Made by a program: the position numbers and the translations under genes. From a virus, in IMG/VR virus record IMGVR_UViG_3300005910_000046, positions 1 through 20,429 of that record: a DNA stretch of 20,429 nucleotides; one strand, written 5' to 3'. Below the pieces are notes generated by a model. The model did no database searches and was not told the origin of the DNA. It saw nothing but the letters and a program-made list of their open reading frames with translations. This document shows positions 2,757 through 20,429 of this stretch, piece by piece (the first letter of the stretch is position 1; each line of letters begins with the position of its first letter).

Positions 2757-2785
2757 TATACATTTTTTGTTCAATGGTGTATAAT
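2757..2785 (+). promoter_or_regulatory. Leaderless promoter for the portal gene
   Basis: TATACA (2757-2762, four of six consensus bases), 17-bp spacer, perfect TATAAT (2780-2785), then 7 bp to ATG 2793. The geometry is identical to that at 2048. The upstream in-frame ATG at 2784 lies inside the -10 box and cannot be used by this transcript, which decides the portal start. Confidence 0.68.
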
Positions 2786-2792
2786 GGTGGCA

Positions 2793-4607
2793 ATGAAAAA
2801 TGTTATAGAACAGCCCATTGAGGTTAATGATTTGCAGTCTGACCTAGACGATGCAACAGTACAGAGTTTCATTCAGCTTCAAGAGAAGTGGTCGAACTCG
2901 TCAATCCGTACAGATAAGATGACGGAAATCGAGGAGGACAAAGAAATACTTGAAGAACTAAACGAGACATTAAACACAGACGAAAGACCGCAAATGAAAC
3001 CGAGTCTGTATTTTAAGCTGATGCGTATTTACGATATTCAAGCATCTGAGCTACCAAAGACGTATGCCAGAAAGAAAGGAATATCAGACGTAGAGCTTTC
3101 ACTGGTGAATTCATTGAAAGACCATATCTACGATGAAGCTGGAGCAGAAGATGTTTATGTGGATGTGATTCAGAGATTCAAAGCAGAAGGTACAGCCGTT
3201 GTTCAAATTGGATTTGATGATGAAGGGAACTATATCCCAATCGAAACGTGTGAACTCGGAGAGATTTACATTGACCCGAAAGTAGACAGCATTGCAACTC
3301 ATGTAGGAATGAAAGGACGAGTAGCACGAACTGTAATCAGAGCCGCTAAAATGAAATACGGAGAGTTCCTACAATACTTTCCAGACATGGAAGGGAAGGT
3401 TTCATCAGGAACACCAGGAACAGAAGAAGTGTTTGCGGTTGAAGACAAAGACATGACAGGAAACAGACTGATGGATGATAAGGATGAGCTTACTGTTTTG
3501 TATTGTTACTCAGTAGAGAAAGGAGAACCAACAATGGCAATCTTCGCTGGGAGCACTGGAGCATTATGTGAACCAGTGAGAAAAGGGAAAGATTATCCGT
3601 TCTGGAGAAAACGAAGGGGACGAGATGTAGCATTTCTACCGTTTGTTGATTTCCATTACTCACGAATGAAAAGAGGATTCTACTCAATGAGTATGATTGG
3701 AATGATGAAAGACATTGCAGAGAGTTTCCGAAAGATGCTCAATTCTGCGTTGCCTGTATTCGCTAAGATAGTGAATCCGTTATTGTTCTTGTTCGGAGCA
3801 ACTGATGACCAGACCATTGAAGAAATGCAACTGGCATACGAACAACAGAAACTCGGAATGAACCCAATGATTGCATCTGAAGAAGGTGTAAGTATGCAAG
3901 CCGTTTCACCGAACTCAAACATATTCACTGAGTTCATCAACGCAAAACAGATAGTGTTTGCTGAAGCATCAGACCGATTCGATATTGATTTCCAACGACT
4001 GAGTGGAGAAGCTGTTAAAGCAACAGTGTTCGTAGGAAAAACAAAGACTGAGTTACAAGCAATCGCTGGACTGTACACAATCAATAAAGTTAAATTCGAC
4101 CTATTGGCTGAATACACAATGGCTCTTGCTTCAAAACACTGGAGCTTGAAAGACCCACGAATAATCAACATTGCTATTACTGAGGATGACTATGTACCTC
4201 TTTCCATTGGGAGAGCTTTACAGGTCTTTAAAGAATTTGAAGGATACTTTGATACAGATACAGATTTACGGATGCCTACGAGCACTGTAGATAAAGCAAA
4301 CGCAATGACGGAGATGGAACAACTTGTGTACTCAACATTCTACGGAAGACCGTTCACATCGGCAGAAGAAATCAGTGTAGAGATTCAGGCACTTGCTTAC
4401 CGAGCCAGATTACGAGATATTGATGATGTTTACACAGTGGCTGCACTCGAAAAGAAAGCCAATCTTGTGTTGCAAGGGAGACAGCAACCTCCACAGCAAG
4501 GAACATCACCAGATGGTTCACTTACGGCAACGAATCCAGCTAACGAGGACGTGGCTCAAGAACTTAGTCCAAATACTGCATTGGCTGAAGCAGCAGCAGG
4601 AGCTTGA
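2793..4607 (+). CDS. Portal protein
   Basis: 604 residues from ATG 2793; an ATG at 2784 would add three residues but overlaps the -10 box. Portals form a dodecameric ring at one capsid vertex, through which the terminase drives DNA and to which the tail attaches. The call rests on length, place between terminase and scaffold, and typical portal-like stretches: an acidic helical N-terminus, a middle with YVDVIQRFKAEGTAVVQIGF and IYIDPKV (about residues 118-163), the helix-rich FVDFHYSRMKRGFYSMSMIGMMKDIAESFRKMLNS segment (split across about 280-315), and a Gln/Ala/Pro-rich tail after residue 560. The stop codon at 4605-4607 lies inside the -35 box of the next promoter. Confidence 0.85.
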   Translation: MKNVIEQPIEVNDLQSDLDDATVQSFIQLQEKWSNSSIRTDKMTEIEEDKEILEELNETLNTDERPQMKPSLYFKLMRIYDIQASELPKTYARKKGISDVELSLVNSLKDHIYDEAGAEDVYVDVIQRFKAEGTAVVQIGFDDEGNYIPIETCELGEIYIDPKVDSIATHVGMKGRVARTVIRAAKMKYGEFLQYFPDMEGKVSSGTPGTEEVFAVEDKDMTGNRLMDDKDELTVLYCYSVEKGEPTMAIFAGSTGALCEPVRKGKDYPFWRKRRGRDVAFLPFVDFHYSRMKRGFYSMSMIGMMKDIAESFRKMLNSALPVFAKIVNPLLFLFGATDDQTIEEMQLAYEQQKLGMNPMIASEEGVSMQAVSPNSNIFTEFINAKQIVFAEASDRFDIDFQRLSGEAVKATVFVGKTKTELQAIAGLYTINKVKFDLLAEYTMALASKHWSLKDPRIINIAITEDDYVPLSIGRALQVFKEFEGYFDTDTDLRMPTSTVDKANAMTEMEQLVYSTFYGRPFTSAEEISVEIQALAYRARLRDIDDVYTVAALEKKANLVLQGRQQPPQQGTSPDGSLTATNPANEDVAQELSPNTALAEAAAGA

Positions 4608-4638: not shown

Positions 4639-4758
4639 ATGGATATTACACCTGCTGATATTGAGAAGTACGAAGCCGACAAGAAAGAGCTTCTCGATGA
4701 AGATAGTGAGAAACGCAAGAAACCAATGCGTGACTTCTTTAATAAACTGAACAAATGA
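4639..4758 (+). CDS. 39-aa leader gene of the S4-domain operon
   Basis: A 39-residue acidic then basic peptide (MDITPADIEKYEADKKELL, ending RDFFNKLNK), placed exactly at the expected first base of a leaderless transcript. Its TGA overlaps the next ATG (ATGA at 4755-4758). It may be a real small protein, or it may serve mainly to deliver ribosomes to the downstream S4 gene. No family is recognised. Confidence 0.6.
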   Translation: MDITPADIEKYEADKKELLDEDSEKRKKPMRDFFNKLNK

Positions 4759-4961
4759 GTGATATGAAACGAGTTGGTATTATTGATTTACTTGTAGATG
4801 TAACGAAATACGCTCCTTCAAGGTCTGAAGCACGAAGACTTGTAGAACAGGGCGGTGTTACTTACGATGGAGAAGTAATTAAAGATGCTAGGGCAGTCGT
4901 TGATGTAAAAGGAGGAGAAGTATTGAAAGTAGGGAAACGTAAATTTGCAAGAATCAAATGA
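4755..4961 (+). CDS. Stand-alone S4 RNA-binding domain protein, TyrRS C-terminus-like
   Basis: 68 residues that form one S4 domain and nothing else. The signature is clear: IDLLVDV (about 10-16), SRSEARRLVEQGGV (22-35), YDGEVIKD (37-44) and the ending VGKRKFARIK (59-68). That combination is typical of the C-terminal tRNA-binding domain of one class of bacterial tyrosyl-tRNA synthetases; the catalytic domain is absent. S4 domains bind structured RNA, in tRNA, rRNA or mRNA leaders. Start and stop each overlap a neighbour as ATGA, so it is translated with the genes on both sides. Its place between portal and scaffold is odd for an RNA-binding protein. Possible roles are binding phage RNA, host tRNA or the ribosome; which one is not shown. 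Confidence 0.85.
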   Translation: MSDMKRVGIIDLLVDVTKYAPSRSEARRLVEQGGVTYDGEVIKDARAVVDVKGGEVLKVGKRKFARIK

Positions 4962-6114: not shown

Positions 6115-7332
6115 ATGGCTAATACAATCATAACCGTTGCAATGTTGCAACGAGAGGTCATCCGAAAGATTGACCGATATGCGATTATCGCACCAACAGC
6201 GAATCGTGAGTATGAACGAACAGGTCTTGATGGACTCCTTTCACAGGGGGACACAGTGACGGTTCAAACATTCCCACGAATCACAGGAACTCTAGGAGGA
6301 ACTTTGGGAGATGACATTTCAGAAACTAATTTTGCGATTACTTCTGAGAACTTTCAAATCTTGGACAGTTACCAACTTAACGTACCTATCAAGGACATTG
6401 AGAAAATCCGTTCAAACCTTCCACTAGAAACTCATGTTGCGGAGCAAATCGCATACGATGTCGCACAAATGTACGACAAAAAAGTCGCTCAAATCGTTGT
6501 AACAAATGCAAATTCAAGCAACGTATTGAACGCATCTACTAACTACACTCCAGACGGTTCTACTGTTTACGGTAAACTTACTGAAATGAGTGAATTGGCA
6601 GATATTCAAGACCTTACTGATGTAGACTTGGACTTGTTTGTAACTCCTAAAATGTGGAGATACATCAAAGAATCAGGAGTTTACGATACAGTAGATGCAG
6701 GATTCAAAATTCGACAGTCGAATGGAGCTGCTGCAACACGAGGTTATCGAGGAAAGATGGACAGATACAATATCTTCGTAACTAATAACTGTCCTTACCG
6801 ACAGAAAGTTACATTTGCTTCTGCACCTTCAAACACTGAAGCAATGACTATCACTGATGGTACAGATACTGTAACGGTTCAATTCGTTACATCTATTGGT
6901 ACTGCTGCTGGTAATATCTTAATTGGTAACGCTGCTGTTTGTTACACGAATCTTCAAACTCTTTTGAATACTCCTGGAACAACTACAGCAAACGGAGTTG
7001 CCCTAGCTGCTGCTGATATTTCATTACTCAAGAAATGGAGATTGCATCTTGGAGATGCTACTTCAACTGTTTCTTACGAAACTTCAGCTGTTCCTTTGGT
7101 TTTTGCAGATACTATTGTTACAAATACCGATTGGGTATCTGGAACAGAGTACCGAGTAGTGTTCGCACTACAGCCGCAGAAATCAGTTCACTTTGTCGCT
7201 CAAATGACAAAGATGAAAACTACTGATGCGGAGGCTGCTTTCAAAATGAATATTCTTACAGAACACGCATTTGACGGTAAAGTCTTCGATGAAAACGCTA
7301 AACGTATCTTCACAATGGGTGTTGATAAATAA
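6115..7332 (+). CDS. Major capsid (coat) protein, P22 gp5-like with an inserted domain
   Basis: 405 residues. It opens with MANTIITVAMLQREVIRK and continues with REYERTGLDGLLSQGDTVTVQTFPR and FQILDSYQLNVPIKDIEKI, a pattern typical of P22-type coat proteins of the HK97 fold. These proteins form the icosahedral shell. The core runs to about residue 225 (YNIFVTNN). It is then interrupted by about 120 Thr/Ala/Val-rich residues (about 230-353) with beta-sandwich character, including DTVTVQFVTSIGTAAGNILIG. The core resumes at about 355 (QKSVHFVAQMTKMKTTDAE) and ends KRIFTMGVDK. The ATG lies 5 bp after a -10 box; no Shine-Dalgarno site is present. A stable hairpin follows the stop. Confidence 0.92.
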   Translation: MANTIITVAMLQREVIRKIDRYAIIAPTANREYERTGLDGLLSQGDTVTVQTFPRITGTLGGTLGDDISETNFAITSENFQILDSYQLNVPIKDIEKIRSNLPLETHVAEQIAYDVAQMYDKKVAQIVVTNANSSNVLNASTNYTPDGSTVYGKLTEMSELADIQDLTDVDLDLFVTPKMWRYIKESGVYDTVDAGFKIRQSNGAAATRGYRGKMDRYNIFVTNNCPYRQKVTFASAPSNTEAMTITDGTDTVTVQFVTSIGTAAGNILIGNAAVCYTNLQTLLNTPGTTTANGVALAAADISLLKKWRLHLGDATSTVSYETSAVPLVFADTIVTNTDWVSGTEYRVVFALQPQKSVHFVAQMTKMKTTDAEAAFKMNILTEHAFDGKVFDENAKRIFTMGVDK

Positions 7333-7377: not shown

Positions 7378-7917
7378 ATGGCTTTCAATAACACAGAGTT
7401 TCTCGAATTCAAAGAAATACCAGGATATTCTGGTAGATATGCAATAAATACATACGGCTCTGTTTTGTCTCTCCCGAAAGAAGGGGGAACTAGGTTCGGA
7501 AGTATTTTCATTCCACAAGAAAACTTAGATGGATACCATCGAGTGTGCCTGCTTGGAAAAACAGTGTCTGTACACAGACTTGTTGCTAAAACATTCATCG
7601 TTAGAGAAAGGGGAAAGGATTGTATAAACCACAAAGATGGGAACAAGCAGAATAATCATGTTTCTAATCTTGAGTGGTGTACTCCAAAAGAAAACGCACA
7701 ACACGCTGTACGAATTGGATTGTTTAATACACAACGAAGAAATAAGGCGAACACAATGAACGCTATAAATAGAAAAAAGTTTAGCGACATACAGGCGAAT
7801 AAAATACGAGAAATAAAAAAAGAAACAGGTTGCTCGATGCGTTCATTGGCAAGATTGTTTAGCTGTAGTAATACAGCGATTAGTAACGTTATTTACAAAA
7901 AAGCAAAATATGTTTAA
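7378..7917 (+). CDS. NUMOD4/HNH homing endonuclease
   Basis: 179 residues. NUMOD4-type start [23 protein letters not shown] (split; about residues 10-32). HNH region: [12 protein letters not shown] (about 63-74) and [20 protein letters not shown] (81-100), then TPKENAQHA; His and Asn residues of the nuclease motif are present. A C-terminal helix-turn-helix ([21 protein letters not shown], split at about 150-172) should bind DNA. Such free-standing enzymes cut a cognate site in phages lacking the gene and spread by repair. It sits between coat and adaptor, where phage gene order expects no other gene. Its last 8 bases overlap the adaptor start, so the adaptor may now depend on it for translation. 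Confidence 0.92.
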
Positions 7918-8524
7918 CAATACTTCATTGACGGCAGAGGACGTGAAACTGCATTTTATCCGAAGGACGAAAGACCAATCCATTGTGGACAACGATGTGA
8001 TTGATGCTCTCAACGACTTCTACTCTATTATGAAACGAGCCGAAAGACAGGCAAAGAGAATAAGAAGCCGAGAATATTCAGCAGTAGCGGTTACTTCAGC
8101 TGGGTACACTCTTACTGGGCTTACTGATATTGGGAGTGATAACGTCAAGGTTTATAAAGGGACAGCTCTTACGGATGTTTCACCATCTACGCTGTTACCA
8201 GAGAGAAACTTTGATGACCAGAAAGCAGGATGGTGTCTCCTCGGAGATGGGAAGCTGTACATCACTCCATTTGGAGGAGCTGAAAGTGTTGTTATCTTCT
8301 ATGATAAGAAAACACCACGAGTAGCAGTGGGGTCTACATTATCAGACCATGTGTTACTTATTGATATTGATTTAGAACAAACATTAAGACGATATGTACG
8401 ATATACGTTCTATGAAGGACAGTATCAAGACGGATTGGCTCAAGAGAATGAGCAGAAGTTTTTAGAGGAGATGACACGATATTTCAGTATGGGGTCGAAA
8501 GCTCACTTCTTTAATCAAACCTAA
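7910..8524 (+). CDS. Head-to-tail adaptor protein
   Basis: 204 residues. Helical N-terminus with [23 protein letters not shown] (split; about 24-46), a central beta-rich part ([35 protein letters not shown]) and a C-terminal helix [23 protein letters not shown]. Similar all-purpose adaptor proteins stand directly after the coat in P22-like and T7-like phages, sit below the portal and carry the tail. The call comes from position, size and general pattern, not from a diagnostic motif. ATG 7910 is inside the end of the endonuclease gene; its stop overlaps the next start as TAATG. Confidence 0.65.
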
Positions 8525-10969: not shown

Positions 10970-12196
10970 ATGGCAGGATTTACCACTGGTGTCATCGACT
11001 TATCAGCAGACAACACGTTTGACAGCGTTATTATGGGTAATGGTGATACAATGACATTCTCGAACGCTGGTACAGGTGGAGGAGTAGAAGCTCCGATTGT
11101 TGTAACGGGAGACTTTACAGTTGCAGGAACAGCGATTATTACATTAAGAAATAACACGAATCTAACAGTTGGAGAAGTTTCTGTTGTAGGAATCACAAGA
11201 GACTTAAATGCAGTAGCTTTATCAACTGGTACAGCAGGTGGAGGCGGTGCTCATGGTGGGGGTTCTAATGTTCATGGTGGATATGGAGGTGGCGGAAGTG
11301 CAACAACTGATGGTGGAGCAGGTTCTGGTTATTATGGGTGTTGGTCTGGCACAAGTGCTAGTACAGCTGGTGGAACATATCCAAACGGAGCAGGAGATGG
11401 TGGTGGTTCTGGAACAGCGGTTTGTAGCGGTTATGGGTATCCATGTGGAGCAGGAGGTGGAGGTGGAAGTGCGGGAGCACCAGGAACTTCAACAGAAAGT
11501 GTTTCATTTTATGTACAAGGAAACGTATCTATTACAGGAGGAACTATTACAGGGGCTGGAGTAAACGGAGTATCCGCAGGTGGAAGTGGTGGTAGCGGTG
11601 GCTCAGGAGGAGGAACATACGGAGGAAGTGCAGGGGGTGGAGGTGGAGGTGGAGCTGGTGGTTCTGGAGGGAATGGTGGGAATTTATATCTTTTCCATCT
11701 CGGAACTGCTGCAGAAGCATTTGATACAACAACATTAGACGGAGGAACTGGAGCAGCGGGTGGTGGTGCTGGAGGAGCGGGAGGTGGTTCTGCCCCTGGT
11801 TCACCTGGAATTGCTGGAGGAGCAGGAACAACGGGAACAACAGGAATTGTTGAACTTATCGAGGTAGATACGACTCCAGAAATGACAACAACGTCAGTCA
11901 CAAACATTTTTTCACTCCAAGCTACGGCAGCTGGGACGATAGTAAATAATGGTGGAAACGCTATAACTGAAAGAGGATTTGTTACTGGTGCAAGTTTAAA
12001 CCCAGATATTACAGACACAAAACATATAGTAGCTGGTGTAACCACACCGTATACAACGACATTATCAAGTTTAACAGCAGACACTACATATCACTGTAGA
12101 GCATACGCAACGAACTCAGAAGGGACTGCTTACGGAGCAGATATAGAATTCAAAACAATTACGGCATTCGTGCCAAGACAAATAGTTAGCATATAA
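10970..12196 (+). CDS. Polyglycine-rich adhesin with C-terminal Fn3-like domain
   Basis: 408 residues. An N-terminal beta region (1-84) is followed by three glycine-rich blocks (about 85-175, 200-240, 260-295), with GGGG runs separated by beta strands such as SFYVQGNVSITGG and NLYLFHLGT. This layout recalls the glycine-helix sandwich of T-even gp38-type receptor-binding adhesins. The C-terminus (about 300-398) is an Fn3-like domain: GTIVNNGGNAITERGFVTG, TTTLSSLTADTTYHCRAYA and TNSEGTAYG. Cys residues (in GCWSG, CSGYGYPC) may stabilise loops. The likely role is receptor binding. GAGG at 10961-10964, five bases before ATG, is the only Shine-Dalgarno-like site near a chosen start in this window, and it also encodes the end of the upstream protein. 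Confidence 0.72.
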   Translation: MAGFTTGVIDLSADNTFDSVIMGNGDTMTFSNAGTGGGVEAPIVVTGDFTVAGTAIITLRNNTNLTVGEVSVVGITRDLNAVALSTGTAGGGGAHGGGSNVHGGYGGGGSATTDGGAGSGYYGCWSGTSASTAGGTYPNGAGDGGGSGTAVCSGYGYPCGAGGGGGSAGAPGTSTESVSFYVQGNVSITGGTITGAGVNGVSAGGSGGSGGSGGGTYGGSAGGGGGGGAGGSGGNGGNLYLFHLGTAAEAFDTTTLDGGTGAAGGGAGGAGGGSAPGSPGIAGGAGTTGTTGIVELIEVDTTPEMTTTSVTNIFSLQATAAGTIVNNGGNAITERGFVTGASLNPDITDTKHIVAGVTTPYTTTLSSLTADTTYHCRAYATNSEGTAYGADIEFKTITAFVPRQIVSI

Positions 12197-15352: not shown

Positions 15353-16920
15353 TGGCAGATTTTAAATTCGACTTCGATGCAGCAACACTTGACACTCCAA
15401 TAAACAAACCAGCGTTTGAGTTTGATTTTGAAGCAGCAATAAAAGATTCTGGTATATCACAAGAACAAACACCAGAACAGAAAGCTATAAATCAAGGATT
15501 TGAACCATCAAGAGGATTAAACGGATTTATCCCTGCAGCAAGAGAGCGTTTTGAAAGAAAACAGCAAAATCTTTCGAGTGAGTTTGATAGATTGGCAACA
15601 GACGTAGCGGAAGATGGAGAATTCACTACTGGTGAAAAACTCAAAGCTGGAGGAGTCGCTACACTTGCTACTATTGGTAGTGCAGCTTCTTTTGCGGTAG
15701 AAACTGCATTAGATGGGATTGTTCGTACTATCAGTACTCTTGTTCCGAACCCATGGGAAGAAAGAAAGATAGCTCAATTTAAAAAGAAAGGGGCAGAGAT
15801 AATGAAATCAGATATTGGGAAGGAAGCACTACTAACTCTTTCTTCAGGACTTGAAGAATGGGACAAATTCAAAGAAAAGAACCCAAATACTGCATCAGTA
15901 GTAGAGTCTGCTCTTAAAATTGCCGAAATAATCCCAGCCGTAAAAGGGTCGAAGATTGCAAAAGAAGGGATTGAAGAAGGGGTAATTCTTGCCGAGAGAG
16001 GACTTGTAAAAGGTGGTCAATTTGCAACAGAAGCAAAGGGAGCTATTGATGTTTTAGGGGACTCGTTTCAAGGAGCTAAACCTGTTCTTGGGGCAGAAGT
16101 AGTCCCAGTCATTGCTAGTAAAAGCAAGAAAACAGCGTTAGAAATGCTAAAACCAAGCGGAAAGAAAGCAGAACAAATAGCTTTACGAGAGGGGAGGGTT
16201 ATAACACCAAAAACAAAACTTCAAAAGTTGTTGTTTGGGGAGAAAATAACACCATCTCAGTTTGAAAACGAAGCAGCTACCTTTATGGCAGAAAACATAA
16301 AGAACCTATCAAACAGTAGGGCGAAAGCTATTAGTCAGATAAGTGAAACGATAGATAAGATAGATGGTAATGTTACGGCTCGTGCAAAAACAATAAAAGC
16401 ACCAAAGAACGCACTCGATGGAGTCGAGGAATCTTTTTTGCAAAAAGCAGATGACATAGCAACTGATTTTAGTAAACAAATAGATGACAGAGGGATTAAG
16501 AAATTTGTTCAACAATTTAATGATAATGTTGCAGAACTAAGAAGTACAATATCAAAGAAAGGAGGGAATATCGGAGATTTAAGAGAAGCTAGAATTAAAT
16601 GGGATAATTCTTTTGATAGGTCTATACGAAAGATAACACCGGACGAAATAATCGGAAAACCAAACTCAACTCAAATAAAATGGAGAATGTGGAAAGATGG
16701 AAGAAATGAACTAAACACAAAATTCTTTGAGATTGCAGCAGAGAACGGAGATGACCTAATGAGAAAGAACCTCAAAGACATGAGTCTTGGTATCCGTTCC
16801 ATTGATGAGATAGCAAACAATGGAAGTGTCGCAAAAGACATATTAAGGGAGCACAAAAGGAAGATAGTTACTGCTGGATTAACAACCCTCGGATTAGGTG
16901 GTCTTGGTATACTTAATTAA
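15352..16920 (+). CDS. Second probable ejection or internal virion protein, membrane-active
   Basis: 522 residues, coupled by TAATG to the large helical protein. It begins with two copies of a short motif, FKFDFDAA (residues 4-11) and FEFDFEAA (22-29). A small-residue hydrophobic stretch follows at about 98-130 (GGVATLATIGSAASFAVE), then long helices, and the protein ends in a hydrophobic tail (about 507-522: IVTAGLTTLGLGGLGIL). These features suit a protein that inserts in the host envelope during DNA entry. No catalytic motif is seen. Its TAA overlaps the stop of a minus-strand gene: TTAATTAA at 16913-16920 serves both. Confidence 0.6.
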   Translation: MADFKFDFDAATLDTPINKPAFEFDFEAAIKDSGISQEQTPEQKAINQGFEPSRGLNGFIPAARERFERKQQNLSSEFDRLATDVAEDGEFTTGEKLKAGGVATLATIGSAASFAVETALDGIVRTISTLVPNPWEERKIAQFKKKGAEIMKSDIGKEALLTLSSGLEEWDKFKEKNPNTASVVESALKIAEIIPAVKGSKIAKEGIEEGVILAERGLVKGGQFATEAKGAIDVLGDSFQGAKPVLGAEVVPVIASKSKKTALEMLKPSGKKAEQIALREGRVITPKTKLQKLLFGEKITPSQFENEAATFMAENIKNLSNSRAKAISQISETIDKIDGNVTARAKTIKAPKNALDGVEESFLQKADDIATDFSKQIDDRGIKKFVQQFNDNVAELRSTISKKGGNIGDLREARIKWDNSFDRSIRKITPDEIIGKPNSTQIKWRMWKDGRNELNTKFFEIAAENGDDLMRKNLKDMSLGIRSIDEIANNGSVAKDILREHKRKIVTAGLTTLGLGGLGILN

Positions 16921-17332: not shown

Positions 17333-17989
17333 ATGAATAATACTCAGTTATCAGAAATAGGCAAGCGATTTGGTCGGTTGGTTGTTTTAGAAGAAACGAA
17401 TCCAAAATTTTCTCCATCAGGAATAAAGAGAAGGATGTATTCTTGTTTATGCGATTGTGGGAACATAAAAAAAACAAGAAGGCAGAGTTTGATAAGGGGA
17501 TATACAAAAAGTTGTGGCTGTCTTTCGTCAGAAATGTTAATAGAAAGAAGGACAACACATAATCTTTCTTATAGTGTTGAATACAAAACATGGATGAGCA
17601 TGAAAGAACGGTGTTTCAACGAAAAAACCACCAGCTATAAGAATTATGGTGGACGAGGAATTGCAATATGCGAACGATGGCTAAGATTTGAAAACTTCTA
17701 TGAAGATATGGGAGAGCGTCCAGAGAAGCACTCTATTGAAAGAATAGATAATGATGGAGATTATGAACCAGAAAACTGTAGGTGGGCTGTATCAAGAGAA
17801 CAAAATAATAACAGCAGAAATAATCATTTTCTTTGTCACGATGGACATGAATTAACTATTGCACAATGGGCAAGGAGACTAAGCGTAAACCCACAAGCAA
17901 TATACTCAAGAATAAGAAAAGGATGGAGTACGGAAAAAACACTCACAAAACCAGTAACTATTTATAAAAGAAGCTCTCATGCACAATAA
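17333..17989 (+). CDS. HNH/AP2-type homing endonuclease-like protein, copy 1
   Basis: 218 residues. It opens with GKRFGRLVVLEET (about 11-23). A zinc-ribbon-like part follows (CLCDCGNIKKTRR, then KSCGCL, about 38-64). The conserved central motif is TWMSMKERC, YKNYGGRGIAICERWLRFENF and IERIDNDGDYEPENCRWA (about 85-152). A C-terminal helix-turn-helix follows (LTIAQWARRLSVNPQAIYSR, about 173-192). This family is common as free-standing, mobile nuclease-like genes in phages; the exact catalytic residues are less well defined than in true HNH enzymes. It lies between the minus-strand membrane genes and a second copy, with an 11-base overlap at its 3' end. The early ATG after TATAAT is used; there is no Shine-Dalgarno site. 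Confidence 0.8.
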   Translation: MNNTQLSEIGKRFGRLVVLEETNPKFSPSGIKRRMYSCLCDCGNIKKTRRQSLIRGYTKSCGCLSSEMLIERRTTHNLSYSVEYKTWMSMKERCFNEKTTSYKNYGGRGIAICERWLRFENFYEDMGERPEKHSIERIDNDGDYEPENCRWAVSREQNNNSRNNHFLCHDGHELTIAQWARRLSVNPQAIYSRIRKGWSTEKTLTKPVTIYKRSSHAQ

Positions 17990-18668
17990 AAAAGTTGAAA
18001 ACGTTATTGGCAATAGGTATGGCAGATTCACTGTATTATCTGATGCAGAGCCAAGAAAGCGTTCAAATGGGCAAAACAGACGTGCAGTTCTTTGCCAATG
18101 TGATTGTGGTGTAGAAAAAATAGTTGTTTTATGTTCTCTGAAAAACTCTACTACACAAAGTTGTGGATGTTACGGAAGAAAGATTAGTTTAAAAGCATTA
18201 AAGAAAAGCAATACGAAACATGGAATGACAGGGACTAGGTTTTATAGGATATGGAAAGCAATGAGAACAAGAAGTACAGACCCGAAAACACCAATAAATG
18301 CTAGGTATCTAAAACTTGGTATTCGTTCTTCTGTTGGGTGGGAAGATTTTGTTAATTTTAGAAATGATATGTATGAAAGTTATTTAGAGCACATAGAAGA
18401 ATTCGGAGAAAACCAAACATCGTTAGACAGAATTGACAATTACGGAAACTACACAAATAAGAATTGTCGTTGGGCTACACTAAGCGAACAACGAAGAAAT
18501 ACTGATTATGATAAGTTTGAAGTATTTGGAAAGGAAAAAAAGAGAATGTCAGAGTGGGCAAAAGAATACAACATAAATCAGAACACAGTTCGGAGTAGAC
18601 TATATCAGGGAATGAATATTGAAGAAGCTCTAACAATACCAGTAAGACCTACCAGTAGAGCGTATTGA
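17979..18668 (+). CDS. HNH/AP2-type homing endonuclease-like protein, diverged copy 2
   Basis: 229 residues, same architecture as the preceding gene: IGNRYGRFTVLSD (about 10-22), CQCDCGVEKIVV and QSCGCYG (about 40-68), GTRFYRIWKAMRTR (about 87-100), SLDRIDNYGNYTNKNCRWA (about 145-163) and a C-terminal helix-turn-helix (MSEWAKEYNINQNTVRSRL). The YKNYGGRGI motif of copy 1 is replaced by ARYLKLGIRSS, so the central site has changed and activity is uncertain. The two proteins are similar in plan but differ much in sequence, so they look like separate arrivals or an old duplication. Its ATG lies 11 bases inside copy 1. Confidence 0.78.
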   Translation: MHNKKVENVIGNRYGRFTVLSDAEPRKRSNGQNRRAVLCQCDCGVEKIVVLCSLKNSTTQSCGCYGRKISLKALKKSNTKHGMTGTRFYRIWKAMRTRSTDPKTPINARYLKLGIRSSVGWEDFVNFRNDMYESYLEHIEEFGENQTSLDRIDNYGNYTNKNCRWATLSEQRRNTDYDKFEVFGKEKKRMSEWAKEYNINQNTVRSRLYQGMNIEEALTIPVRPTSRAY

Positions 18669-18684
18669 CAAATATTAAAAAGGT

Positions 18685-18828
18685 TTAATGGAAGGAGCGT
18701 TCGAACCCACGCTGAACTAACCACTCAAGGGTCTTAGAGTCTGTCTTTTCGTTCAGAAACTCTTTGGTTATCTTCACAATCTCCTCAGTATCCTGAGTTC
18801 TCGGAATAGCGTATCTTCGCTTTTTCAT
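18685..18828 (-). CDS. 47-residue minus-strand protein
   Basis: From ATG (complement 18826-18828) to TAA (complement 18685-18687). The frame stays open further upstream, but the promoter and its start lie just before this ATG, so the shorter form is chosen. The product is hydrophilic: basic start MKKRRYAIPRTQ, an acidic helix EEIVKITKEFLNEKTDS, then a helix LEWLVQRGFERS. It could be a small DNA-binding or regulatory protein; no family is recognised. It lies alone between the endonuclease pair and the fibre genes, in a 244-bp gap without a plus-strand gene. Promoter and operator-like repeat upstream are the main support. Confidence 0.5.
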   Translation of the reverse strand: MKKRRYAIPRTQDTEEIVKITKEFLNEKTDSKTLEWLVQRGFERSFH

Positions 18829-18838
18829 TTGTACGCAA

Positions 18839-18867
18839 ATTATACCACACTTTTGTGTACATTTAAA
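18839..18867 (-). promoter_or_regulatory. Extended -10 promoter with spacer dyad for the 47-residue gene
   Basis: On the minus strand: TTTAAA (18862-18867), 17-bp spacer, TGG then perfect TATAAT (18839-18844), an extended -10. Ten bp separate it from the ATG, so the leader is about 3 nt. The spacer contains the perfect inverted repeat ACACTTTTGTGT (18847-18858), and TGTAC occurs at 18830-18834 and 18856-18860, flanking the -10 box. Confidence 0.58.
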
Positions 18868-18887
18868 GTGTTCAGCTTCAAAAGAGC

Positions 18888-18893
18888 TATAAT
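18888..18893 (+). promoter_or_regulatory. Possible -10 box for the paired fibre genes
   Basis: TATAAT at 18888-18893, 19 bp before ATG 18913, giving a leader of about 13 nt. No convincing -35 sits 16-18 bp upstream. It diverges from the minus-strand promoter at 18839-18867. Confidence 0.38.
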
Positions 18894-18912
18894 GAGTTTT
18901 TAACCCTTTTAT

Positions 18913-18936
18913 ATGACGGATTTTATTAACCGTACA
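18913..18936 (+). repeat. 24-bp exact direct repeat, copy 1, at a gene start
   Basis: Identical to 19249-19272, base for base from the ATG onward. The bases before it (TTTTTAACCC) also resemble those before copy 2 (TTTTTAAACCCC). After the repeat the two genes share almost nothing. Confidence 0.9.
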
Positions 18937-19230
18937 TCGCATCGTATTAACGATAACAACACTACAGCATCTAGTGGAGCAGGTGCTATCCCTTTATCTG
19001 GTAGGATTCACCAGATTACTACTACTTCTGCGGATGCCTTAACATTGGCAGACGGATTTGAAGGACAACGAATTACTCTTGTTCTTGAAACTGACGGAGG
19101 AGATGGAACACTCACACCAACAAATCTTGCTGGTGGAACAACTATTGTATTCGATAACGCTGACACAGCAGAGATGTTGTTTACAGGGGGAACATGGTAT
19201 ATGCTCGGAGGAATCGCAGCACTTTCTTAA
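18913..19230 (+). CDS. Short fibre-like protein sharing its N-terminal tag with the next gene
   Basis: 105 residues. The first 13 (MTDFINRTSHRIN) match those of the following protein except at one position, and the DNA of the first 24 bases is identical. The rest is a compact beta-rich domain: ISGRIHQ-like strands, TTTSADALTLADGFEGQRIT, LTPTNLAGGTTIVFDN and LFTGGTWYMLGGIAAL. This pattern, with repeated short strands ending in a GGxWYMLGG turn, is common in small tip domains of phage fibres. The shared N-terminus is best explained as the part that fixes the protein to the virion or to a chaperone. The assignment is from context and composition. Confidence 0.6.
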   Translation: MTDFINRTSHRINDNNTTASSGAGAIPLSGRIHQITTTSADALTLADGFEGQRITLVLETDGGDGTLTPTNLAGGTTIVFDNADTAEMLFTGGTWYMLGGIAALS

Positions 19231-19248
19231 TTTTTAAACCCCTTACAA

Positions 19249-19272
19249 ATGACGGATTTTATTAACCGTACA
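19249..19272 (+). repeat. 24-bp exact direct repeat, copy 2, at a gene start
   Basis: Second copy of the repeat at 18913-18936, 336 bp downstream. It encodes the first eight residues of the second tag protein. Homologous recombination between the copies would delete or swap the first gene exactly, leaving an intact start. Confidence 0.9.
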
Positions 19273-20013
19273 AGCCACAAAATCAATGCGGCTTCAGACA
19301 CAACAAAAAATATGACCACTACTGGTGATACAGTAATTGGTGATGCTGCCGAAGACACACTAACAGTGAACGGTATATCTACTTTCGATACTTACGTTAG
19401 GGTTCGTAACCGACCAGTTACAACAGACGTTTACGCACTCGAAGTCAAAGGAGACTACGCTGCAGCAACAGGAGTGTATCAAGGAGCATTTCAATGTTCT
19501 ACAAGAGTTTACCCAACAGGAGATACCTCTGCTGCTTTAGCTAGGGGTGGGTATTTTCAATGTCAGTTACACGCTGATGACACAATGACTGCTGGTGGAA
19601 TGACAGGACTTTATACACAGGTTCACAATAACGGAACTGGTATAATGAACGGTGCAGCCCTTGTAGTTCAATCACTACATACAGATATTGCCGATGGTGG
19701 AACATGGACTGCTGTAGAACGACTTTGTTCACTTCATGTAGACAGTAATCTCGCACAAGCTGTTAGCTCTGGAATCTATAACCTTTTGTTTATTCAAAAC
19801 AGCGGTTCAACAACAGCAGCAGATGCTATTGCTATTGACGGAAACGACAAGGTTACAGCTCTTATGACACTAACAAATATAGATGGAGCAGCTATGGTAG
19901 CTAATGGTGCTGTTCTTGCCGACATCTCTAGTACAGCAAATGCAGGATATATTAAAGTTATTGTAGAAGGAGACACTAAATATATCGCTTTATACGATAC
20001 AAAGACAAGTTAA
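19249..20013 (+). CDS. Fibre-like protein, second member of the N-terminal-tag pair
   Basis: 254 residues. It begins MTDFINRTSHKIN, the same tag as the previous protein, then a Thr/Asp/Gly-rich strand region (TTGDTVIGDAAEDTLTVNG) and a long run of beta-strand repeats (AFQCSTRVYPTGDTSAAL, GGYFQCQLHADDTMTAGG, ALVVQSLHTDIADGGTWTA). The C-terminus is ANAGYIKVIVEGDTKYIALY, a small domain often found at the end of phage surface proteins. The repeats suggest a fibre or a capsid-decoration protein. No endosialidase or chaperone motif is visible. A terminator follows after 18 bp. Confidence 0.6.
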   Translation: MTDFINRTSHKINAASDTTKNMTTTGDTVIGDAAEDTLTVNGISTFDTYVRVRNRPVTTDVYALEVKGDYAAATGVYQGAFQCSTRVYPTGDTSAALARGGYFQCQLHADDTMTAGGMTGLYTQVHNNGTGIMNGAALVVQSLHTDIADGGTWTAVERLCSLHVDSNLAQAVSSGIYNLLFIQNSGSTTAADAIAIDGNDKVTALMTLTNIDGAAMVANGAVLADISSTANAGYIKVIVEGDTKYIALYDTKTS

Positions 20014-20076: not shown

Positions 20077-20232
20077 ATGAAGAAATTTGAAATTACAGAG
20101 GAAACTCTGGTGGAGGTATTCAATTATTTGACTATGAAACCATTTGGTGAAGTAGAAAAGATAATGGCTAGTCTTCGTACAACGGCTCAAAATGAAATAA
20201 AAGAACCAATCAAAGAAGAAAAGAAAAAATAA
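20077..20232 (+). CDS. Small conserved-type phage protein
   Basis: 51 residues from ATG 20077. The core LVEVFNYLTMKPFGEVEKIMASL (split; about 11-33) fits a short helical protein often found among phage tail and lysis genes, with the pattern Y-L-x-x-x-P-[FY]-x-E-V. Then comes a Lys/Glu-rich tail that is probably disordered (ending EEKKKK-like). Function is unknown. It lies between the terminator at 20032-20065 and the next promoter, and has no Shine-Dalgarno site. Confidence 0.65.
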   Translation: MKKFEITEETLVEVFNYLTMKPFGEVEKIMASLRTTAQNEIKEPIKEEKKK

Positions 20233-20334: not shown

Positions 20335-20429
20335 ATGAGTCTTATAACAGGACAAAGAGGGGTATCCCCTCAACGAGGTATGCCTACGGATGACAAAGGA
20401 GCATCCACACAGACAGTAGCAGTAACAGG
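20335..20429 (+). CDS. Start of a gene cut by the window edge
   Basis: The first 31 codons, beginning MSLITGQRGVSPQRGMPTD and rich in Gly, Pro, Gln and Thr, as in the flexible N-termini of virion or fibre proteins. The stop is beyond the window. It has its own consensus-like promoter and a structured leader. No family can be named from so short a piece. Confidence 0.6.
   Translation, partial: MSLITGQRGVSPQRGMPTDDKGASTQTVAVT

Follow-up and report, generated by a model that had tools for sequence, protein, structure and literature searches.

Gene content of the window

The stretch of DNA analysed here, referred to as the window, is the whole of IMG/VR virus record IMGVR_UViG_3300005910_000046, which is linear, 20,429 bp long, and probably a piece of a longer genome. 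It carries a podovirus-like structural cassette with all genes on the + strand. The genes recognised were those for a large terminase (776-2044, Terminase_3), a portal (2784-4607, a weak match to phrog_1216), a capsid (6115-7332, phrog_267), and an SU10-like adaptor (7910-8524, slightly under the Pfam cut-off), along with several large proteins without family assignment that extend to position 16920. The capsid and adaptor genes are separated by an HNH gene (7378-7917), and two further HNH endonucleases belonging to one family (phrog_374) are encoded by overlapping genes at 17333-17989 and 17979-18668. Directly downstream of these are the two genes under study, which we call tag genes 1 and 2. 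Tag gene 1 (18913-19230, + strand) encodes 105 aa, made up of a 13-residue tag, a short linker, and a C-terminal domain. Tag gene 2 (19249-20013, + strand) encodes 254 aa, with the same 13-residue tag in front of a different body of about 240 residues.

Several other features of the window were recorded. A stand-alone S4 RNA-binding domain of 68 residues is encoded at 4755-4961 (+), between the portal and a scaffold-like gene; it matches Pfam S4 with E = 2.5e-10 and is of the tyrosyl-tRNA synthetase C-terminal type. The 408-aa glycine-rich protein encoded at 10970-12196 (+) has a C-terminal part that looks fibronectin-like by eye, without a Pfam match. The beginning of tag gene 1 is overlapped by an antisense frame, 18685-18942 (-), of 85 aa, or 47 aa when counted from its ATG at 18825; this frame weakly matches the repressor family phrog_362 (E = 0.013). 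Downstream of tag gene 2 are a 51-residue frame with no family match (20077-20232, +) and another gene truncated by the record end (20335-20429, +). A third tagged gene may lie downstream of tag gene 2, past the record end. The window contained no tRNA. Around the tag pair, no RNA family was recognised, and sites resembling promoters or terminators were no more numerous than in shuffled sequences.

The phage is poorly sampled, and every test that depends on relatives is limited to that extent. Its terminase is nearest to those of Parabacteroides, Phocaeicola, and Flavobacterium phages (30-34%), and was at most 46% identical to those of viral contigs. Just two of the relatives found by terminase share another window gene, an HNH gene. 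Neither phages nor viral contigs yielded a match to the capsid protein, and no close relative of the phage was present in the searched collections. Clear Shine-Dalgarno sequences are missing before most genes in the window; taken with the relatives of the terminase, this suggests that the host is Bacteroidota-like.

The repeated gene start

Exact copies of ATGACGGATTTTATTAACCGTACA are present at two places only, 18913-18936 and 19249-19272 (both + strand), identical at 24/24 positions and 336 bp apart. Each copy begins precisely with the start codon (ATG) of an open frame and covers codons 1-8 (MTDFINRT), which confirms the identity of the first 24 bases reported in an earlier note on this DNA. 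It is the longest exact repeat within the record; in 60 Markov-simulated sequences of equal length, the maxima ranged from 13 to 18. The leaders of gene 1 (18897-18912, +, with no Shine-Dalgarno sequence) and gene 2 (19233-19248, +) are also alike, as that note had seen. They share the form TTTTTAA(A)CCC(C)TT and differ at positions -1, -3, and -4.

The note had further held that the rest of the two genes differs completely, but this does not hold for the five codons that follow. These encode SHRIN in gene 1 (18937-18951, +) and SHKIN in gene 2 (19273-19287, +), with 4/5 residues identical and DNA identity at only 6/15 positions. All four identical residues are written with different codons (TCG/AGC, CAT/CAC, ATT/ATC, and AAC/AAT). 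The two proteins, which start with MTDFINRTSHRIN and MTDFINRTSHKIN, thus have 12 of the 13 residues of the tag MTDFINRTSH[R/K]IN in common, and only past residue 13 are they unrelated by sequence.

The probability of codon identity was computed with the window's own codon usage. Inside the repeat, all seven variable codons are identical (P = 0.0017), and a run of seven identical codons anywhere in the 11 shared residues has P = 0.004; independent drift to seven identical codons is unlikely. Over the whole 13-residue tag, 7/11 shared residues use the same codon where 4.5 would be expected (P about 0.10). As the residues were kept while the later codons changed, the pair appears to share an old peptide tag, not a fresh 24-bp copy, and the 12/13 identity alongside fully diverged later codons points to a tag kept at the protein level. 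Such a protein-level tag accounts for most of the observation. The first 24 bases may also have been homogenised later; the sharp boundary at codon 8/9 hints at this, as modest evidence. Gene conversion or recent recombination, which the earlier note had proposed, is thus weakly supported: the seven-codon run speaks for it (P about 0.002, or 0.004 for a run at any place in the tag), but the overall count of 7/11 does not, the leaders already differ at three positions, and the codons after the repeat are fully diverged.

The same observations bear on a constraint at translation start, in which the need for efficient initiation in the absence of a Shine-Dalgarno sequence would hold the leader and first codons, with no docking role for the peptide. 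The identity does begin exactly at the ATG, the leaders are alike, the scarcity of clear Shine-Dalgarno sequences in the window would suit such a mechanism, and the repeat can fold into a weak hairpin of 4 bp (-3.1 kcal/mol). However, the protein identity outruns the DNA identity, with codons changed, which a pure nucleotide-level constraint does not predict, and none of the other window genes has the 24-bp start. We consider this explanation quite unlikely.

Searches for the tag elsewhere found no MTDFINRT in other viral contigs, and no relative carrying the tag among the phages, genomes, and viral contigs searched. Matches to MxDFINRT (24) and MTDFINRT (10) in genomes look like chance, being in short frames or unrelated proteins. 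One of these, a capsid-like protein starting with MADFINRTSAQ, has no similarity to the tag proteins beyond that start.

The two bodies and paired genes in other phages

The domain of gene 1 covers residues about 21-100 (about 85 residues) and carries the motif LADG[FAV]EGQ. A profile search yielded 202 relatives among 325 candidate stretches, the best 80 of which were kept. The domain occurs in >80 viral contigs and in Pelagibacter phage HTVC008M; in most relatives it lies near the C-terminal end, and the N-termini are unrelated among carriers. One carrier is a head cement protein (Phage_cement) with two copies of the domain (L003), and another has it behind a T4_gp9_10_N-like N-terminus slightly under the Pfam cut-off (L008). 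In three contigs (L149, L147, and L187), it is found on proteins with the N-terminus of phrog_6465, annotated as 'tail protein'. In L130, a short-tag protein with the domain is encoded one gene downstream of an SU10-type capsid gene, an order repeated in L131, L132, and L139; the domain proteins of these four contigs, all encoded near the major capsid gene, have 110-143 residues. Like gene 1, these have about 20-60 N-terminal residues before the same domain and are 60-68% identical to it where aligned, but they differ in having other N-terminal peptides, in standing close to the major capsid gene, and in lacking a second gene that shares their tag. The tag may loosely resemble the short N-terminal peptides in L130-L139, with hydrophobic residues at positions 4-5, S/T at 9, and basic residues at 10-11; we give this likeness no weight. 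Among its carriers (L003, L008, L130-L208), the domain was also seen on signal-peptide-like N-termini, and the gene 1 version reaches no Pfam family at its cut-off.

Because the domain stands behind many different N-termini, it is a movable body with both head-type and tail-type mounts. Its own similarities are faint: the gene 1 protein has a weak match to Pfam Phage_depo_C (E = 0.0055, below the cut-off), and the model of it, low in confidence, weakly resembles a tailspike depolymerase (E = 0.087). That model is weak (pLDDT 50), and its PDB matches are all above E = 0.05, so that it serves as a hint only. The label 'fibre-like' would name one possibility only, and a head-decoration role would fit equally well. 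For gene 2, we found a weak match to phrog_14293, a family of unknown function (E = 1.8e-4, residues 15-188), and no relatives in phages or viral contigs; its single-sequence model is unusable (pLDDT 33).

The company that the gene 1 domain keeps also bears on an inward targeting peptide of the T4 capsid targeting type, by which the two products would be internal proteins packed in the head for injection. The logic is the same as in T-even phages, whose diverse internal proteins share nothing but a conserved N-terminal targeting sequence (PMC3012670); like the window, T4 has diverse proteins of one phage united by a short N-terminal peptide. The T4 internal proteins are packed with the DNA, whereas body 1 belongs to a domain that elsewhere sits on surface-type proteins (cement, tail-fibre anchor, gp9/10-like). 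In addition, no head protease was recognised among the window proteins scanned, from a record that is incomplete. Inward targeting is, in our estimate, slightly less probable still than a translation-start constraint.

To place the pair among other phages, 207 loci (1.85 Mb) were surveyed for same-strand pairs sharing >=7 of the first 13 residues. In about 17 contigs (L135-L194, L200), several of them near-copies, so that roughly a dozen are distinct, a gene with the gene 1 domain adjoins another that shares its N-terminal module but differs in the C-terminal part. The shared module reads MALES.T.IDDL... in those pairs and MAFSKQ... in L200. An unrelated phage (L107/L119) has two structural proteins with a common MADYQS... 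start. The window has the arrangement of the comparator pairs: adjacent genes with a common N-terminal module and different C-terminal parts, one of them with the LADGxEGQ domain. The pairs of the phrog_6465 type (L149, L147, and L187; module MALESVTNIDDL...SEGDDHIRNIK) resemble it in being adjacent genes, one with the gene 1 domain, but their module is much longer, belongs to a tail-protein family, and has an exact DNA prefix of 4-6 nt, whereas the window tag has no PHROG match. Those three loci do match phrog_6465, and neither window protein does. In the comparator pairs generally, the shared module is longer than the window tag, with homology past residue 40 in most. By its arrangement, the window pair is a compact, short-tag case of a known modular tandem design. 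The suggestion in the earlier note that a common tag stands before exchangeable distal domains agrees with these results, body 1 being found behind unrelated N-termini and tandem pairs recurring among its carriers.

At the DNA level, the exact prefix of the comparator pairs is mostly 4-6 nt, reaching 17 nt in L107 and L200, and the 24 nt of the window pair is the longest identical start among the 207 loci. The share of identical codons in the tag is 7/11 in the window and about half in the comparator pairs, values not far apart. These numbers bear on an active exchange site, at which recombination between the copies would keep the 24-bp identity and genes with different bodies could come, go, or be exchanged behind the tag. 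The record length of the identical start among 1.85 Mb is in line with such a site, as are the identity of the first seven variable codons (P about 0.002) with its abrupt end at codon 8/9, and the geometry: with the copies in frame and 336 bp apart, a crossover between them would delete gene 1 in frame. The clean removal of the first gene envisaged in the earlier note is thus geometrically sound, but no such event was seen. Against active exchange stand the codon identity over the whole tag, which does not clearly exceed chance (P about 0.10), the lack in the collections searched of a second phage with the tag, and so of any exchange observed, and the comparator pairs, which retain their module without DNA identity. 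We regard active exchange as unlikely. A stronger form, in which the 24-bp start would be a dedicated exchange site, perhaps aided by breaks made by the HNH endonucleases (17333-18668), with fast-changing surface proteins behind a constant tag, seems highly improbable.

A putative docking peptide

The interpretation that we favour, with somewhat better than even confidence, sees the 13-residue peptide as a docking tag that mounts both proteins on the same kind of particle site, with the bodies differing. It draws on the retention of the tag at the protein level and the position of the gene pair at the end of a structural cassette; on the occurrence of body 1 on cement, gp9/10-like, tail-type, and near-capsid proteins; and on the recurrent tandem pairs and the precedent of K1-5/SP6 and Klebsiella phages. 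Genes 1 and 2 would encode small virion proteins sharing the docking peptide, which would bind one kind of particle site, be it tail, adaptor, or capsid lattice, while the different bodies would face outward and offer different surfaces. The pair could have arisen via an old duplication or fusion of leader and tag before unrelated bodies, after which selection would have preserved the peptide sequence of the tag. A brief homogenisation at a later time, or else constraint combined with chance, might then account for the identity of the first 24 bases. The presence of both proteins in the virion, docking by the tag, the docking partner, and a role in host range are things that we infer from sequence and analogy.

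Tail spikes of K1-5 and SP6 have 7- and 11-residue N-terminal docking peptides, established for the two of K1-5 (PMC6872550), and conserved N-terminal peptides of second receptor-binding proteins have been proposed for docking in Klebsiella phages of the KP32, KP34, Menlow, and PhiK64-1 groups (PMC6872550). As in the K1-5/KP32 type, a very short N-terminal peptide (there 7-29 residues) is kept and the rest exchanged, with a location in the tail-fibre part of a podovirus genome. In those phages, the peptide is conserved from one phage to another, whereas in the window the same peptide stands on two proteins of one phage. In K1-5 itself, the two proteins carry different peptides, MAKLTKP and MIQRLGSSLVK, and bind different adaptor sites (PMC6872550). 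We counted this difference against docking, together with the longer comparator modules, the poor models, and the absence of relatives of body 2. No T4 gp10-like adaptor or anchor was found among the window proteins scanned (in part in Pfam), in a record that is a fragment and has several large proteins unmatched.

The finding extends a known principle and adds none. The presence of the LADGxEGQ domain on head-cement, gp9/10-like, and tail-fibre-anchored proteins shows that bodies move between quite different mounts. If the tag docks, a handle of about 13 residues would be common to two different virion proteins of one phage, and the pair would be a compact example of how surface proteins may be changed without rebuilding the particle.
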